Shown piece after piece: positions 7,394 through 14,338 of a stretch of DNA of 46,602 nt. The first letter of the stretch is position 1. Each line of letters opens with the position of its first letter. The translations under genes were made by a program, and so were the position numbers. The notes under the pieces are model-generated. The model made no database searches, was not told the origin of the DNA, and saw only the letters and a program-made list of their open reading frames with translations. This DNA comes from an uncultured Clostridia bacterium (lineage in GTDB: Bacteria > Bacillota > Clostridia > Christensenellales > CAG-138), in contig CAMVMM010000017.1 in the NCBI GenBank assembly GCA_947168565.1, positions 1-46,602 on the forward strand. The letters are read 5' to 3'.

Positions 7394-7479
7394 AATTGTT
7401 CCTCCTTGAGTGTTTCCGCAAGGGAAAGCGGCGCAAAGGCCATATTCCCTCACGATAATTATTGTTTCCTATAACTGGT

Positions 7480-7507
7480 ATTATATTCAACAGCCGTAAT
7501 ATGTCAA
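7480..7507 (-). promoter_or_regulatory. sigma-A promoter of groES-groEL
   Basis: On the minus strand TTGACA (7502-7507) and TATAAT (7480-7485) are spaced by 16 nt. Expected start is near 7473, giving a leader of about 80 nt. No TTAGCACTC/GAGTGCTAA element occurs in the leader or around the promoter. Confidence 0.8.
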
Positions 7508-7559
7508 GCGCGGCTAAAGAGGGCGCGAAAAATATATACATCGTTTTTGTAAAATCGGG

Positions 7560-7588
7560 TTGAAATACGCTCCGCTTTTCAGTATAAT
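7560..7588 (+). promoter_or_regulatory. sigma-A promoter of the leader ORF and ABC exporter operon
   Basis: TTGAAA (7560-7565), a 17-nt spacer and a perfect TATAAT (7583-7588). The expected transcription start near 7595 is about 10 nt before the ribosome binding site of the leader ORF. Confidence 0.82.
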
Positions 7589-7620
7589 AGCTGCATTATC
7601 AAGGAAAGGAGGTCGCAACC

Positions 7621-7716
7621 ATGTTCAACAGCATCAATCTTTACGGTTTCCATGGCGACGTGTTCGCCATGCTTTCGCGCGCGGCCTCGTTCCCTGCTCC
7701 CTTGCTGCATAAATAG
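7621..7716 (+). CDS. 31-aa regulatory leader peptide
   Basis: A 32-codon ORF begins ATG at 7621 with an excellent ribosome binding site AAAGGAGGT (7605-7613, 7-nt spacing) and ends TAG at 7716. The product begins MFNSINLYGF and ends FPAPLLHK. It is not hydrophobic enough to be an obvious secreted or membrane peptide. It lies between a sigma-A promoter and a strong intrinsic terminator (7743-7776), ahead of a two-gene ABC exporter. Two hairpins overlap the ORF: a perfect 8-bp stem CATGGCGA/TCGCCATG (7651-7658 with 7664-7671), and CTGCTC/GAGCAG (7694-7699 with 7716-7721) spanning the stop codon. Known parallel: BmrB, whose translation controls termination ahead of bmrCD in B. subtilis. Inference: this peptide is translated to sense ribosome stalling rather than to act as a protein. 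Confidence 0.75.
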   Translation: MFNSINLYGFHGDVFAMLSRAASFPAPLLHK

Positions 7717-7742
7717 AGCAGTCAATGGATCTTGGGCTTTTC

Positions 7743-7776
7743 CGGACCGCAGCGCAGAGCTGCGGTCCGTTTTTTT
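7743..7776 (+). terminator. intrinsic terminator / attenuator ahead of the ABC exporter
   Basis: A perfect 11-bp stem CGGACCGCAGC/GCTGCGGTCCG (7743-7753 with 7759-7769) has a 5-nt loop GCAGA and is followed by seven T residues (7770-7776). It starts 27 nt after the leader stop and about 100 nt before the exporter start, so full termination would shut off the operon. The 5' arm can alternatively pair with TGCTGC (7703-7708) or GCGGCCT (7681-7687) in the leader ORF, giving candidate antiterminators. Confidence 0.88.
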
Positions 7777-7876
7777 GCGCCGCGCAAGCGGCGGGTTCAG
7801 CAGTGAATCAAACGACTCTCGGGCGCGGCATGAAAACGGCATATCCGTGCCGGAGAGAATGAAATAACGAGGTAAT

Positions 7877-9787
7877 ATGGAAAACAACACCGAAAAAGGC
7901 TCCAAAAAGAGCTCCGAAAAAAAGCCCATGAGCCGCGAGGAAAAGCGCAGGCGCGGCAGGGTCAAGCGCAAGCTTATAAAGGAATTCAGCCGAGGCACGA
8001 AAGGGCATTTTGTCGTCGGCATATTCGCCATAATCGCCGCAATAGTTTCGGCATACGTTATTCCGCTCATCACAAGCTTCACAATAGACTACGTGCTGCT
8101 TGATTACGCGGAAACGGGCTACACCGGCGGCATGGTGGTGGCGCCGTGGATAGCCTCGCTCGTGGAGCGGCTTGGCGGAAAGACCTTTCTTGCAAACAAT
8201 CTTTACATCATGGCGCTGCTGCTCGTGCTTGCCACGGCCCTCAACGCCTTTATGACCTATCTGCGCCGCAGCAGGGTGGCGATGGGCGCGGAAAGCCTTG
8301 CGTACAATATGCGCACAAGGCTCTACGACCATCTTTCAAACGTGCCCTACGACTACTATAAGCACGTTTCAAGCGGCGACATCATCCAGCGCTGCACCTC
8401 GGACGTGGACACGATCCGAAGATTCGTTCAAAATCAGCTTCTTGAGATAGTGCGCACCGTTTTCATGGTGGTGATAGCCGCCTACATCATGTTCAGCATG
8501 AGCGCGAGGCTTGCGCTGATCTCCGTGATGCTGATGCCTTTTCTTGCGATCGCCGCCTATCTGTACTGCAAGGGCGTGAAGAAGCATTTCGCCCTTTCGG
8601 ACGAGGCGGAGGGCGCTTTGAGCGCAACGATACAGCAAAACGCCACAAGCGTGCGCGTGGTGCGCGCCTTCGGGCAGCAGCGCGCGGAGATGGACGCCTT
8701 CACGGAAAAGAACCTTGACTACAAGAAAAAGACGCTGCATCTGAACAAGCTGATGGCGTATTTCTGGGGCTGCTCGGACACGATAGGCTTTCTTCAGATA
8801 GCGATAAGCCTTTGCTTCGGCGTGTATTTCGTGATAAAGGGGCGCATCTCCATAGGCGAGATGCTCGTGTTTTCATCCTACACCTCCATGCTGGTTTGGC
8901 CCGTGCGCCAGCTTGGGCGAATACTTGCGGATCTTGAAAAGGCGGGCGTTTCGCTTGGAAGGATCGCCGAGATTCTTGAATCGCCCGTGGAGGAGGAGCC
9001 CGGCAGGGCGCTCACGCCGCAGATAAAAGGAAATATTGAGTTTAAAAACGTTTCCTTCGGCTATGAGGACGATCAGGTGGTGCTTGACGATATAAGCTTT
9101 AGCGCGAAGCGCGGCGAGACCGTGGCCATACTCGGCTCCACCGGCTCCGGCAAATCGAGCCTTGTGCAGCTGCTTCAAAGGCTTTACACGGCGCGCAGCG
9201 GTGAGATACTCATAGACGGCGTGAATATAAACGATATAGAGCGCCATCATTTAAGGCGCAATATCGGAATAGTTTTGCAGGAGCCGTTTCTTTACTCAAG
9301 AACCATAATCGAGAATATCCGCATCACGCGGCCGGAGGCCGAGGAGAGCGAGGTTCACGAGGCCGCCTCCGTTGCCGCCATCCACGAGGTGATAAAAAGC
9401 TTTGACCGGGGCTACGACACGATAGTGGGCGAAAAGGGCGTTACGCTTTCCGGCGGTCAGAAGCAGCGCGTGGCGATAGCCAGAATGCTTATGCAGAATG
9501 CGCCGATAATCATACTGGACGACTCCATGAGCGCCGTGGACACGGAAACGGACGCGGCGATACGCGACGCGCTCCAGTCAAGGCGCGAGGGCTGCACCAC
9601 CTTCATTATTTCGCACAGGATAACCACGCTCTGCCGCGCGGATAAGATACTTGTGCTTGAGGGCGGCAGGCTCGTGCAGCAGGGCACGCACGAGCAGCTT
9701 TTGCAGCAGGACGGGCTTTACAGGCGAATTGCGGATATACAGACCCTGCTTGAAACCGACCTATTAAACGAACAGGAGGCTGAATGA
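7877..9787 (+). CDS. heterodimeric ABC exporter subunit with degenerate Walker B (BmrC-like)
   Basis: Fused membrane-ATPase half transporter of the multidrug/lipid exporter type, 636 aa. The N-terminal 35 residues are basic and cytoplasmic; six membrane helices span about residues 40-350. The ATPase domain has Walker A GSTGSGKSS (about 420-428), signature LSGGQKQ and Walker B IIILDDSMSAVD (about 544-555). The residue after the Walker B Asp is Asp rather than the usual catalytic Glu (canonical form LDEATSALD), as in the non-canonical half of heterodimeric exporters such as BmrC. The start at 7877 has ACGAGGT upstream. Its stop overlaps the next gene by 4 bp (ATGA), implying coupled translation. 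It is transcribed through the leader attenuator. Substrate unknown; drug efflux is inferred from context only. Confidence 0.93.
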   Translation: MENNTEKGSKKSSEKKPMSREEKRRRGRVKRKLIKEFSRGTKGHFVVGIFAIIAAIVSAYVIPLITSFTIDYVLLDYAETGYTGGMVVAPWIASLVERLGGKTFLANNLYIMALLLVLATALNAFMTYLRRSRVAMGAESLAYNMRTRLYDHLSNVPYDYYKHVSSGDIIQRCTSDVDTIRRFVQNQLLEIVRTVFMVVIAAYIMFSMSARLALISVMLMPFLAIAAYLYCKGVKKHFALSDEAEGALSATIQQNATSVRVVRAFGQQRAEMDAFTEKNLDYKKKTLHLNKLMAYFWGCSDTIGFLQIAISLCFGVYFVIKGRISIGEMLVFSSYTSMLVWPVRQLGRILADLEKAGVSLGRIAEILESPVEEEPGRALTPQIKGNIEFKNVSFGYEDDQVVLDDISFSAKRGETVAILGSTGSGKSSLVQLLQRLYTARSGEILIDGVNINDIERHHLRRNIGIVLQEPFLYSRTIIENIRITRPEAEESEVHEAASVAAIHEVIKSFDRGYDTIVGEKGVTLSGGQKQRVAIARMLMQNAPIIILDDSMSAVDTETDAAIRDALQSRREGCTTFIISHRITTLCRADKILVLEGGRLVQQGTHEQLLQQDGLYRRIADIQTLLETDLLNEQEAE

Positions 9788-11646
9788 TGGACGAGCTTGC
9801 AACTTCCGCTCTTCATGAAGAGGAGTTCAGCAAAAAGATAGATCTTAAGCTGTGGAAGCGCCTGCTTTCATACGCGCTGCGGTATCGCGGCATGTTCATT
9901 GCGATAGTGCTTTTGATGCTGCTTGTGGCGCTTATAGACCTTGTGTATCCGCAGCTCACAAGATACGCGATAGACAATATCATTTCCAAGGGGGAAGGCG
10001 GCATACGGGAGCTTGTGCCCTTTGCGGCCGTATACGGCGCAGTGGTGCTCGTTCAGGGCGGCTGCGTGGTTGCCTTCATCTATTTCTGCGGAAAGCTGGA
10101 GCTGAATATGAGCTTTGATATTCGGCAGGACGCCTTTAAAAAGCTTCAGGAGCTTTCGTTTTCCTACTACGACAAAACCGCCGTTGGCTACATCATGGCG
10201 CGCATGGTGGGCGACATCACCCGACTGAGCGAGATGATAGCGTGGAGCCTGACGGATATTTTCTGGTCCACCGGCTTCATACTCGGCTGCATAGCCTTCC
10301 TGCTTGCCATGAACTGGAAGCTGGGGCTGCTGGTGCTGATAGTGCTGCCCCCGCTTGCGGTGATAAGCGTTTATTTTCAGCGCAGGATCCTTGCGCAGCA
10401 CAGGATAGTCAAAAAACAGAATTCGCGCATTACGGGCGCCTTCAACGAGGGCATAATGGGCGCGGTGACTACAAAAACGCTCGTGCGCGAGGAGCGCAAT
10501 TTTGAGGAGTTCAAGAGCGAATCCGGCACGCTGAAAAAGGCGTCCATCCGCGCGGCGGTGCTCTCCGCGCTGTTCACCCCCATCGTGATGACGCTTGGCT
10601 CCATCGCCACCGCGATAGCGCTTTACGCGGGCGGCCGCACCGTTATCGCCCCCACGGTGTTCGGAGTGGGGATGACGCTTGGCGTGCTGACCACCTTCAT
10701 ATCCTACACCACGAATCTTTTCGACCCCATGCAGCAGCTTGCGGGCATATTCGCTGAGATGCAGAGCGCGCAGGCGAGCGCGGAGCGCGTTATCTCCCTT
10801 TTGGACACCCCCTGCGATATTACCGACACGCCGGAGGTTATCGCAAAATACGGCGACAGCTTCGACCCCAGGCGCGAAAACTGGGAGGAGCTGCACGGCG
10901 ACGTGGAGTTTAAAAACGTTTCCTTCGCCTATAAGGACGGCGAGCGGGTTTTGAAGAATTTCAATCTGAAGGTGAAGCAGGGCGAGACCGTGGCGCTCGT
11001 TGGCGAAACCGGAGCCGGAAAAAGCACCATAGTGAACCTTGTGTGCAGATTTTATGAGCCGACCGAGGGCGAGATACTGATAGACGGCAGGGATTACCGC
11101 GAAAGAAGCCAGCTTTGGCTTCAGGACAGGCTCGGCTACGTGCTTCAGACCCCGCATCTTTTCAGCGGCAGCATAAAGGATAATATCCGCTACGGGCGCA
11201 AGGACGCGGGCGACGACGAGGTTATGGAGGCGGCGAAGCTCGTTCACGCGCACGAATTCATAACGGGGCTTGAAAAGGGCTACGATACCGAGGTCGGCGA
11301 GGGCGGCGCAAGGCTCTCCACGGGGCAGAAGCAGCTCATAAGCTTCGCCCGGGTCATACTTGCCAACCCGAGGATCTTCGTGCTGGATGAAGCCACAAGC
11401 TCCATCGACACCGAGACCGAGGCGCTCATCCAGAGCGCGATAGGCGAGGTGCTGAAAAACCGCACCAGCTTCATAGTTGCCCACAGGCTCTCCACCATCC
11501 GCTCGGCGGACAGGATACTGGTTATCCGCGGCGGCAGGATCACCGAGAGCGGCACCCACAGGGAGCTTTTGAAGCTGCGCGGCTACTACTATAACCTTTA
11601 CACGACGCAGTTCACGGAGAACAGCACCGAAAAGCTGCTTTCGTAA
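9784..11646 (+). CDS. heterodimeric ABC exporter partner subunit (BmrD-like)
   Basis: Second half transporter, 620 aa, with about six membrane helices between residues 30 and 335 and a C-terminal ATPase domain. Walker A is GETGAGKST (about 408-416) and Walker B is FVLDEATSSID (about 532-542) with the catalytic Glu intact. The signature is LSTGQKQ, so its second Gly is replaced by Thr. In the ABC dimer this weakened signature faces the Walker A/B of the first subunit. One ATP site is therefore doubly degenerate and the other canonical, the known pattern of asymmetric exporters. It overlaps the first subunit by ATGA, so equimolar synthesis is expected. No clear terminator follows. The next gene begins 91 bp later, after direct repeats of TTTTAAACCG. 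Confidence 0.93.
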   Translation: MMDELATSALHEEEFSKKIDLKLWKRLLSYALRYRGMFIAIVLLMLLVALIDLVYPQLTRYAIDNIISKGEGGIRELVPFAAVYGAVVLVQGGCVVAFIYFCGKLELNMSFDIRQDAFKKLQELSFSYYDKTAVGYIMARMVGDITRLSEMIAWSLTDIFWSTGFILGCIAFLLAMNWKLGLLVLIVLPPLAVISVYFQRRILAQHRIVKKQNSRITGAFNEGIMGAVTTKTLVREERNFEEFKSESGTLKKASIRAAVLSALFTPIVMTLGSIATAIALYAGGRTVIAPTVFGVGMTLGVLTTFISYTTNLFDPMQQLAGIFAEMQSAQASAERVISLLDTPCDITDTPEVIAKYGDSFDPRRENWEELHGDVEFKNVSFAYKDGERVLKNFNLKVKQGETVALVGETGAGKSTIVNLVCRFYEPTEGEILIDGRDYRERSQLWLQDRLGYVLQTPHLFSGSIKDNIRYGRKDAGDDEVMEAAKLVHAHEFITGLEKGYDTEVGEGGARLSTGQKQLISFARVILANPRIFVLDEATSSIDTETEALIQSAIGEVLKNRTSFIVAHRLSTIRSADRILVIRGGRITESGTHRELLKLRGYYYNLYTTQFTENSTEKLLS

Positions 11647-11736: not shown

Positions 11737-13164
11737 ATGGCAAAGGCGCTTCCCGAAAAATTCACCCTTCGCATGAAGGCGCAGCTCGGCGCGGAATACG
11801 ATGCTTTTATTGCCGCATACGAGCTGCCGCCCGTGCGCGGAATACGAATAAACACGCTGAAGCTGAGCAAGGAAAGGTTTTTGCAGCTCTGCCCGTGGAG
11901 CGTGGAGCAGTCGCCCACGCTGGACGAGGGGCTTATCCTTTGCGAGGACGTGCCGCATATCGGCTCGCACCCCTTCCATATCGCGGGAATGCTTTACGTT
12001 CAGGAGCCCTCCGCAATGAGCGTTATAGATATGGCGGAGATAAGCCCCGGCATGAGGGTGCTGGATCTTTGCGCGGCGCCCGGCGGCAAATCCGGCGGCA
12101 TCGCTGCAAGGCTACGGGGCAGCGGGCTGCTCGTTTCAAACGAAATAGTGCCCGCCCGCGCAAGGCAGCTTGCACGCAATCTTGAGCGGCTCGGCGCGGT
12201 CAACTCCGTCGTTACCTGCGCCCGTCCGGACGCCGTTTCGGAAGCGCTCCCCCGCTTTTTCGACCGCGTTATCGTGGACGCGCCCTGCTCCGGCGAGGGT
12301 ATGTTTCGAAAGGACGACACCGCGATAGAGGAATGGTCACCGGAGCACGTTGCCTCCTGCGCCGCAAGGCAGAGGGCGATACTTGAGAGCGCGGAAAAAT
12401 GCGTTCGGGAGGGCGGCAGGCTCATCTATTCCACCTGCACCTTTTCGCCCGAGGAAAACGAGGGCGTTATCGAAGCTTTTCTTTCAAAGCACCCCGAATA
12501 TTCGCTTGAAACAATGCGCAGGCTTTACCCGCACACCTCCGCCGGCGAGGGGCATTTCGCGGCAAGGCTGATAAAAGCCGGCGCTTCGGCTGCCGTGCCG
12601 CAGAAGGTCAGGCCCGGCGGCAGGGGCGAAGCTGCAAGGCGCGAAACGGCTGTTAAAATGCCCGACAAACAAACGGAAGCGCTTGCCGCGAGCTTTTTTG
12701 ACGGGGTATTGAGCGGCGCCGCCCCAAGCTTTTCCGCGCTTTATTCCGCGGTTTCGGCAAAGGGCGCCTTCTCCGAAAGGCTTTTGTACTGCCCGTTTGA
12801 ATTCCCAAAGGAGCTGCTTCTTCTGCCCATCGTTTCATTCGGCGCTGCCGTGGGCGAAAGAGCGGGAAGGGTCTTTAAGCCCTCGCACTCCTTCTTTATG
12901 GCGGCGCACGGGCTCGGGTATCGAAACGGGCTTGAATTGGCGGGCGACCCCGCCGCGCTCCCCGCCTTTCTTCGCGGCGAAGCCCTGAGCGGTGATGCAG
13001 CGGCTTTGCACGGCTTTGATATTTCAAACGAATACTCCCGCTATATGCCCGTTTGCGTTCACGGCTGCCCGGTGGGCTTCGGCAAGCTTTCGGACGGCTG
13101 TTTAAAGAACCATCTTCCCAAGGGGCTTATCGTTTCAAGAAGCGCGGCGCTTGCGGATGAATAG
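11737..13164 (+). CDS. rsmF: NOL1/NOP2/Sun-family rRNA cytosine-C5 methyltransferase, RsmF-like
   Basis: SAM-dependent RNA m5C methyltransferase, 475 aa. The SAM-binding loop is DLCAAPGGKSGG (about 110-121). The two family cysteines are present: C184 in DAPCSGEGMFRK (motif IV) and C234 in YSTCTFSPEENE (motif VI, the nucleophile). The C-terminal about 190 residues look like the RsmF-type RNA-binding extension ending in a PUA-like fold, with VCVHGCPVGFGKLSDGCLKN. The architecture matches proteins annotated RsmF in Firmicutes; the exact rRNA target (C1407 in E. coli) is not proven here. The start at 11737 has AAAGGAG upstream. The gene is independent in character from the exporter in front of it. 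Confidence 0.88.
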   Translation: MAKALPEKFTLRMKAQLGAEYDAFIAAYELPPVRGIRINTLKLSKERFLQLCPWSVEQSPTLDEGLILCEDVPHIGSHPFHIAGMLYVQEPSAMSVIDMAEISPGMRVLDLCAAPGGKSGGIAARLRGSGLLVSNEIVPARARQLARNLERLGAVNSVVTCARPDAVSEALPRFFDRVIVDAPCSGEGMFRKDDTAIEEWSPEHVASCAARQRAILESAEKCVREGGRLIYSTCTFSPEENEGVIEAFLSKHPEYSLETMRRLYPHTSAGEGHFAARLIKAGASAAVPQKVRPGGRGEAARRETAVKMPDKQTEALAASFFDGVLSGAAPSFSALYSAVSAKGAFSERLLYCPFEFPKELLLLPIVSFGAAVGERAGRVFKPSHSFFMAAHGLGYRNGLELAGDPAALPAFLRGEALSGDAAALHGFDISNEYSRYMPVCVHGCPVGFGKLSDGCLKNHLPKGLIVSRSAALADE

Positions 13165-13247: not shown

Positions 13248-13276
13248 TTGATTTAATTCTTCAGGTGGTATATAAT
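13248..13276 (+). promoter_or_regulatory. sigma-A promoter of fba
   Basis: TTGATT (13248-13253), 17 nt, then TATAAT (13271-13276). The leader from about 13283 to 13389 can form a hairpin closed by GGATCGC/GCGATCC (13287-13293 with 13348-13354). Confidence 0.75.
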
Positions 13277-13389
13277 GGAGCAAGCAGGATCGCTCTTGCG
13301 CCGTTTTGACGCGCTTCGCCCGGTTTCGGCGTTCCGCAGGCGGCTGTGCGATCCATGTACAACACAAAAGATTTTGGGAGGATCATCCT

Positions 13390-14325
13390 ATGCCACTCGT
13401 AACCAGTACCGAAATGTTCAAGAAGGCCTATGAAGGCGGCTACTCCATCGGCGCATTCAATGTGAACAACATGGAGATCATTCAGGGAATCACCGAGGCT
13501 GCGAAGGAAGAGAACGCGCCCCTTATTCTTCAGGTCAGCGCCGGCGCAAGGAAATATGCCAACCACACCTACCTTATGAAGCTCATCGAGGCTGCCCTGA
13601 TCGAAACCGATCTTCCGATCTGCGTTCATCTTGACCATGGCGACAGCTTCGAGCTTTGCAAGAGCTGCATCGACGGCGGCTTCACCTCCGTTATGATCGA
13701 CGGCTCCCACCTCCCCTATGAGGAGAATATCAAGCTTACCCGCCAGGTGGTTGAATACGCGCACGATCACGGCGTTGTGGTCGAGGGCGAGCTCGGCCGT
13801 CTTGAGGGCGTTGAGGACGACGTGAACGTTTCCGCCGAGGACGCAAGCTACACCAACCCCGCGCAGGTTCAGGATTTCGTCGGCCGCACCGGCGTGGACA
13901 GCCTTGCCATCGCAATAGGCACCAGCCACGGCGCATACAAATTCAAGCCCGGCACCAAGCCCCAGCTCAGGTTCGACATTCTTGAAGAGGTCGAGCGTCT
14001 GCTTCCCGGCTTCCCCATCGTGCTTCACGGCGCAAGCTCCGTTATCCCCGAGTTCGTTAAAATGATAAACGAGCACGGTGGCAATATGCCGGACGCGATC
14101 GGCGTGCCCGAGGATATGCTGCGCAAGGCGGCGAGCATGGCCGTTTGCAAGATCAATATCGACAGCGACCTGCGCCTTGCCATGACCGGCACGATCCGCA
14201 AGTATTTCGATGAGAACCCCTCTCATTTCGATCCCCGTCAGTACCTCAAGCCCGCCCGCGCCGCCATCAAGGAAATGGTTCGCCACAAGCTGATCCACGT
14301 TCTTGGCTGCAACGGCAAGGCATAA
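13390..14325 (+). CDS. fba: class II fructose-1,6-bisphosphate aldolase
   Basis: Zinc-dependent aldolase of glycolysis and gluconeogenesis, cleaving fructose 1,6-bisphosphate to two triose phosphates. The 311-aa protein has the catalytic Asp and first zinc ligand in HLDHGDSFE (D82, H83), the acidic EGELG (around 132-136), and the zinc-ligand His residues in GTSHGAYKF (H180) and VLHGASSV (H213). INIDSDLRLA near the C terminus contributes to phosphate binding. The start at 13390 (MPLVTSTEMF) is preferred to an upstream in-frame ATG at 13306, because GGGAGG lies upstream of it and the family begins here. It is driven by its own promoter with a structured leader of about 105 nt. Confidence 0.97.
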   Translation: MPLVTSTEMFKKAYEGGYSIGAFNVNNMEIIQGITEAAKEENAPLILQVSAGARKYANHTYLMKLIEAALIETDLPICVHLDHGDSFELCKSCIDGGFTSVMIDGSHLPYEENIKLTRQVVEYAHDHGVVVEGELGRLEGVEDDVNVSAEDASYTNPAQVQDFVGRTGVDSLAIAIGTSHGAYKFKPGTKPQLRFDILEEVERLLPGFPIVLHGASSVIPEFVKMINEHGGNMPDAIGVPEDMLRKAASMAVCKINIDSDLRLAMTGTIRKYFDENPSHFDPRQYLKPARAAIKEMVRHKLIHVLGCNGKA

Positions 14326-14338
14326 TTCGCTCATCTAT

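Follow-up and report, generated by a model that had tools for sequence, protein, structure and literature searches.

What switches on the pair of ABC exporter genes that begins at position 7877 of this 46,602-nt stretch of clostridial DNA (hereafter the window), when a short open reading frame and an intrinsic terminator stand between those genes and the nearest promoter? An earlier note, made from the sequence alone, had proposed a BmrB-like attenuator that senses translation. Every part from which it set out, namely the promoter, the 31-codon upstream ORF (uORF), the 11-bp terminator with its seven T residues and the overlapping ABC genes, lies where it had been placed. The notion that a terminator upstream of the exporter pair answers to translation is supported, but the anatomy is not that of bmrB. 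On the comparison of related leaders given below, the attenuator is a real, conserved element, and it probably acts on transcription through the ribosome, governing a heterodimeric exporter by a logic sensitive to early ribosome arrest.

The leader, which lies entirely on the forward strand, opens with a sigma-70-type promoter found by sequence scan (7560–7588; TTGAAA and TATAAT, 17 nt apart) that carries 11 of 12 consensus bases. Five promoter-grade sites occur in the 5.5 kb scanned against 3.1 ± 1.8 expected, so the promoter by itself is within chance; leaders of orthologs in the genus have, by eye, like hexamers at the corresponding place. The Shine-Dalgarno (SD) block of the uORF, AAAGGAGGTCGC (7605–7616), includes a strong SD, AAAGGAGG (7605–7612), and its portion at 7609–7616, here element 1, is the partner of the uORF tail. 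According to the ORF list the uORF, which we regard as regulatory, occupies 7621–7716; its 31 codons encode MFNSINLYGFHGDVFAMLSRAASFPAPLLHK, a peptide whose sequence is not conserved. Element 2 is the uORF tail GCGGCCTC (7681–7688), which pairs with GAGGTCGC at 7609–7616 to form the 1:2 helix, with one G-U pair. Element 2 also overlaps a candidate antiterminator, whose 5′ strand at 7677–7686 could form 10 pairs, with two bulges, to 7744–7755. The segment GCGGCCT (7681–7687), which the earlier note had picked out as a possible partner of the terminator, is real and is the key element; its pairing with the uORF SD had been missed.

The intrinsic terminator (7743–7776) starts 26 nt after the uORF stop at 7716. 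It consists of element 3, the 5′ arm with the start of the loop (7743–7756), and element 4, which together span 7743–7769, and of a T7 tract at 7770–7776; its 11 pairs are the most among 18 terminator-like sites (7.1 ± 3.0 expected). The 182-nt leader as a whole folds better than 200 of 200 shuffles (z −4.33). The covariance models of Rfam 15, run against the window only, returned no family at the gathering threshold, and the best local match (E 0.12) lies on the opposite strand, far below its threshold. Pairing of 7703–7708 with the 5′ arm of the terminator is possible in the window by inspection. A mid-ORF hairpin (7651–7671) is present there by inspection as well, but it is not kept among relatives (mean z 0.08 over 49 leaders), and we rejected it as a conserved pause hairpin.

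The two genes downstream, half-exporter A (7877–9787, 636 aa) and half-exporter B (9784–11646, 620 aa), lie on the same strand, share a 4-nt overlap and both encode ABC proteins, A with a membrane domain. At Walker B, A carries ILDDSMS, which by motif rules we take to be a degenerate catalytic site, and B carries VLDEATS, presumably a canonical one; by these rules ILDD and VLDE point to an asymmetric heterodimer, which A and B would form. By sequence, the best solved relatives of both halves are P-glycoprotein-type chains. Among the bacterial ones, Sav1866 comes first for A with BmrC (YheI) just behind (E 1.8e-94), and for B the top chain belongs to what we take to be TmrA, with BmrD (YheH, 5e-92) ranked after several bacterial exporters including TM0288 and Sav1866. 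BmrC and BmrD are therefore among the solved relatives of A and B, respectively, and neither is the top match.

An RsmF-like 16S rRNA m5C methyltransferase gene (11737–13164) follows on the same strand, 90 nt after the exporter, and beyond it a 357-aa ORF on the reverse strand (13261–14334) matches nothing in Pfam or PADLOC at E ≤ 0.001. On the other side, the groES-groEL operon points away from the leader, with the groES promoter within 7420–7540 on the reverse strand. Relatives in a sister clade have a perfect CIRCE at this promoter (L025–L027, L029–L031, L035, L037, L128–L130); the pattern occurs in 18 of 201 loci, copies included, and is absent from the window. Genus members have instead, by eye, a near-palindrome like ACCGATAATTGGT adjoining the groES −10, and the two arrangements hint at an operator swap.

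Comparison with relatives, which the earlier note had suggested as a check, showed that the uORF is conserved and that an alternative pairing, of the tail with the SD, co-varies. Against dinucleotide-shuffled tails, the 1:2 duplex was significant at p ≤ 0.05 in 26 of 32 leaders, 13 of which also passed p ≤ 0.01. Four of the 32 (L098, L112, L113, L117) had been found by a pattern demanding SD–tail pairing, the reversed control of which matched in many genomes as well; without them, 23 of 28 leaders reach p ≤ 0.05. A second set of 18 leaders, in which the uORF was selected on SD strength and the presence of a terminator nearby, with pairing ignored, yielded p ≤ 0.05 in 15 and p ≤ 0.01 in 10; this set omits L135 (p 0.07), L136 (which duplicates L062) and L178 (p 0.04), which surfaced later under a looser terminator rule. 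Among 105 long ORFs with strong SDs that served as a control, four reached p ≤ 0.05 and none p ≤ 0.01. For these counts the duplicates L114–L116 were dropped, L005 was left out because its leader is identical to that of L004, and named records of genus genomes were counted once; terminator limits were hand-set in 7 of the 32 leaders. Own tails also pair better with their own SD than the tails of other species do, including within hand-set clades (p 5e-5). The window itself is a modest case, with p 0.023 and its own tail placed 17th of 32 for its SD.

Over 50 leaders the longest helix has a mean of 9.14 bp versus 6.94 bp with shuffled tails (highest set mean 7.32), and it touches the SD in 49. 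Helices of at least 7 bp are frequent by chance (58% of shuffled tails versus 47/50 observed), and those of at least 8 bp occur in 28% of shuffled tails versus 42/50 leaders. The helix of L058 extends to 17 bp and includes the start codon, and in a few leaders (e.g. L012, L031, L034) the longest unbroken helix is short or other than the main SD–tail duplex. SD and tail strings have changed together, as in L041 (AGGTCGTG/CACGACCT), L029 (AGACCGCA/TGCGGTCT) and L037 (AGGTTGCGCA/TGCGCAGCCT). Complementarity was tested leader by leader, and not with a covariance model, because the MAFFT alignment misplaces the tail in several rows. Comparison of these sequences shows the layout and the co-varying 1:2 pairing, and it strongly supports the 1:2 helix as a putative anti-antiterminator.

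The uORFs of the 50 leaders run from 21 to 43 codons, with the terminator starting 8–79 nt past the stop, its choice having demanded a place near or after that stop. Their peptides are free to vary: in a tally covering positions 2–6, no residue beyond Met1 is found in more than 11 of 50, and orthologous leader peptides are unlike one another. The SD side of the longest helix takes 45 distinct strings in 50 leaders and the tail helix is spread over all three reading frames (21/15/14), which argues that RNA pairing is kept and not the peptide. These observations bear on a leader of the ErmC or TlrB type, in which drug and nascent peptide jointly halt the ribosome at a fixed codon and the terminator is then blocked by that ribosome or by a strand it frees. 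Such peptide-specific arrest would suit the exporter context and a gene order like that of known drug-sensing leaders, but we consider it unlikely given the variable residues after Met1, the use of all three frames and a terminator judged to lie mostly beyond the reach of a ribosome on the ORF.

The other pairing that an attenuator of this kind would use, between the tail and the 5′ arm of the terminator (2:3), is the weaker one. The earlier note's proposal that this arm pairs alternatively with the uORF tail describes a possible structure with a weak signal: against shuffled tails, 2:3 reaches p ≤ 0.05 in 9 of 32 leaders, and the window's own 2:3 (p 0.18) does no better than chance. Own versus other-species pairing gives p 1.5e-4 overall and 0.16 within clades. 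Clear examples of a candidate 2:3 antiterminator are L034, L041, L061 and L098.

We simulated the ribosome by cutting the leader just before the 3′ arm of the terminator and masking a ribosome footprint (assumed to reach 15 nt upstream). Averaged over 32 leaders, 5′-arm capture by upstream RNA was 0.62 in free RNA, 0.81 with the ribosome at the AUG and 0.59 with the ribosome near the stop. Capture at the start codon rose by more than 0.1 in 17 of the 32 and fell in none, and the rise of +0.19 compares with +0.02 for shuffled tails (highest of 20 sets 0.056). The second set behaved alike, with +0.20 versus −0.04 for shuffled tails (highest 0.023), a rise in 9 of 18 leaders and a fall in one; a rise above 0.1 at the AUG is absent in 24 of 50 leaders. 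A ribosome at codon 5 gave more capture than one near the stop in 17 of 32 leaders, and less in 6. A codon-by-codon walk over 50 leaders gave 0.74–0.775 at codons 1–4; capture then dropped to 0.66 at codon 5 and 0.63 at codon 6 and levelled off at about 0.60 from codon 7, against a free value of 0.58. Because the effect is largest at codons 1–4 and near the free value from codon 7, it appears tied to cover of the SD. In the window, capture was 0.75 at codons 1–4, 0.44–0.75 at codons 5–14, mostly 0.25–0.42 at codons 15–25 with the ribosome over the tail, 0.67–0.87 over the six final codons and 0.12 at the stop, a curve by which the window fits the model only partly. Since the terminator is very stable, the logic would depend on kinetics, which a cut transcript and an assumed footprint can only imitate.

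The simulation also speaks to a plainer arrangement, a leaky operon insulated by a terminator, in which tail–SD pairing does nothing but silence a useless ORF. Weak support for 2:3 is what such an operon would predict; a strong SD and a start codon that are kept although the peptide is not, and a lift in arm capture on SD masking that far exceeds shuffled tails in two sets, are not, and we hold this explanation to be very unlikely.

For the ribosome-mediated attenuator we envisage the following logic, with the uORF SD block as element 1, the uORF tail as element 2 and the terminator arms as elements 3 and 4. With no ribosome loaded, 1:2 would pair, the terminator would form and the exporter would be off. 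During smooth translation the ribosome would sit on or near element 2, or would depart and let 1:2 re-form; the terminator would win in either case, and the exporter would stay off. Arrest within the first four codons or so would keep element 1 covered and leave element 2 free to capture element 3, so that the terminator would fail and the exporter would be on. Because element 2 shuts the SD once it is transcribed, the first ribosome would mainly decide the fate of each transcript. The natural inducer would be some compound or stress by which ribosomes are stalled soon after they start on the uORF.

The same 1:2, 2:3 and 3:4 topology characterizes attenuators of the trp and his kind, which respond to starvation for an amino acid through its charged tRNA. 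Here, however, the pooled peptides have no dominant residue (A 10%, V 8.5%, S 8.3%, R 8.1%) and share no run of a single one, the uORF of the window has no regulatory codon run and the genes downstream encode an exporter, with no biosynthetic role, which together make starvation control highly improbable. That the 1:2 helix is instead a site for a small molecule or protein, as in a riboswitch or the target of an RNA-binding regulator, would suit its standing as the best-kept element of the leader, but is hardly credible, since the helix is nearly free in sequence and the window's leader matches no Rfam family.

Among known systems, the nearest mechanism to that proposed for the SD–tail leader is found, as far as the cited texts go, in the ABCF genes vmlR of B. 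subtilis and cplR of C. difficile. Their 5′ hairpin holds a tripeptide uORF, and arrest on that uORF undoes the hairpin and lets an antiterminator form; in vmlR the hairpin is the anti-antiterminator, and the uORF SD is essential and lies in a single-stranded region (PMC9226507, PMC10201436). The uORF start is essential in both genes, and the SD of the main gene is hidden too. Two of three natural peptide variants serve vmlR as well as MIN does, while the cplR paper states that uORF identity matters for vmlR induction (PMC9226507, PMC10201436). Unlike in the accounts cited, the uORF here has 31 codons (21–43 in relatives), the tail is the partner of the SD and the gene downstream encodes an ABC protein with a membrane domain.

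In bmrB-bmrCD of B. subtilis, a leader ORF, terminator, antiterminator and anti-antiterminator precede a heterodimeric ABC exporter that is induced by ribosome-targeting drugs, and nt 60–162 of the 162-nt ORF, which starts with GTG, contain all three structures (PMC4191407). As far as that description extends, the two share an SD-bearing leader ORF ahead of two consecutive ABC half-exporter genes; unlike in bmrB, the terminator here follows the uORF and the anti-antiterminator strand would be the uORF SD region. An attenuator ahead of an ABC exporter is likewise predicted for patAB of S. pneumoniae, with terminator, antiterminator and anti-antiterminator, fluoroquinolones or DNA damage as inducers and, in the cited portions, no leader ORF described, in contrast to the uORF here (PMC4319486). 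For tlrB (yxjB) of B. subtilis, the cited sections describe a leader peptide and terminator, arrest before the last arginine of an RXR motif and a stalled ribosome that itself blocks the terminator; initiation must precede an SD-hiding hairpin, and the leader SD is weakly hidden in B. pumilus (PMC6851288). The timing problem, to initiate on the leader before the SD-hiding hairpin is complete, is the same as here.

How far does this leader extend? Within the genus, the orthologous exporter is present in 11 of 11 genomes, each with the SD–uORF–terminator arrangement: a uORF of 22–39 codons, a strong SD and a terminator after. These terminators were first read by eye, and a script found them again in 9 of 10 leaders. 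Among named genomes, a scan confined to the best 80 of 343 loci contained 25 that were at least 58% identical; the leader was present in all 24 of these with upstream DNA (that of L036 was entered by eye). It also occurs in Tissierella sp. P1 (L041), a Tissierellaceae MAG (L044), Robinsoniella peoriensis (L058), Maledivibacter halophilus (L039, 588 nt upstream) and an Oscillospiraceae MAG (L053), and was absent from 10 other examined loci at ≤50% identity (L038, L040, L042, L046–L052) and from L055. Two tandem terminators with similar stems stand, by eye, upstream of the exporter gene in some distant leaders, namely L041, L044, L191, L192 and L193. A DNA match in another genome (L017 in G073) was discarded as a leader, being by eye a chance match inside another gene.

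An order-wide draw of 297 genomes contained 70 with an ortholog at E ≤ 1e-150, 67 of them examinable (G143 and G156 meet contig ends, and L137 has 138 upstream bases). The leader was found in 30 of the 67 and not in 37, two of which (L138, L139) are at 58–60% identity. A phylum-wide draw of 398 genomes added four orthologs, three with the leader. On a quick exporter tree of 64 rows, whose forks are open, the leader label changes 7 times versus 21.1 with shuffled labels; 14 order-level leaderless exporters form a single branch, the 23 others lying outside the tree. Sixteen leaderless or unsure loci were viewed. A primosomal-helicase-like gene precedes several of them, and a sugar-transporter-like ATPase gene faces several (both named by eye); two (L135, L136) have the leader under a looser terminator rule.

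The arrangement keeps close company with this exporter. Across 81 sequences (1.0 Mb), 21 distinct SD–uORF–terminator units reached p ≤ 0.05 and 20 of them stand ahead of it, although only the flanks serve as background because the loci were picked around such exporters; the 21 units are 24 rows, three with a second start, from 74 candidate rows of which 52 were at p ≤ 0.05 before merging. In the genome of the window itself, none of the six paralogous exporter genes examined (of 11 further ABC matches) has the leader within 1500 nt upstream.

What seems new here, judging from the sequences, is a uORF of 21–43 codons whose tail locks its own SD, the sequence drifting while the pairing holds; a search of the open-access literature returned no paper describing this leader among the matches listed. 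We tentatively suggest, as a possibility somewhat short of an even chance, that such self-sequestering uORF attenuators are a widespread, undescribed class of RNA regulator, in which each transcript senses once, independently of the peptide, whether its first ribosome is arrested in the first four codons or so. They might then serve one ABC exporter lineage, from Christensenellales to Tissierellia and Lachnospiraceae, as general sensors of arrest in the initiation phase. The design rule, an SD block complementary to the uORF tail, would find switches that have neither a conserved peptide nor a conserved RNA sequence. The proposed logic predicts induction only by arrest at about codons 1–4, and, across a large and mainly uncultured section of the gut and rumen flora, exporters that would be induced by translation-blocking compounds without a protein regulator.
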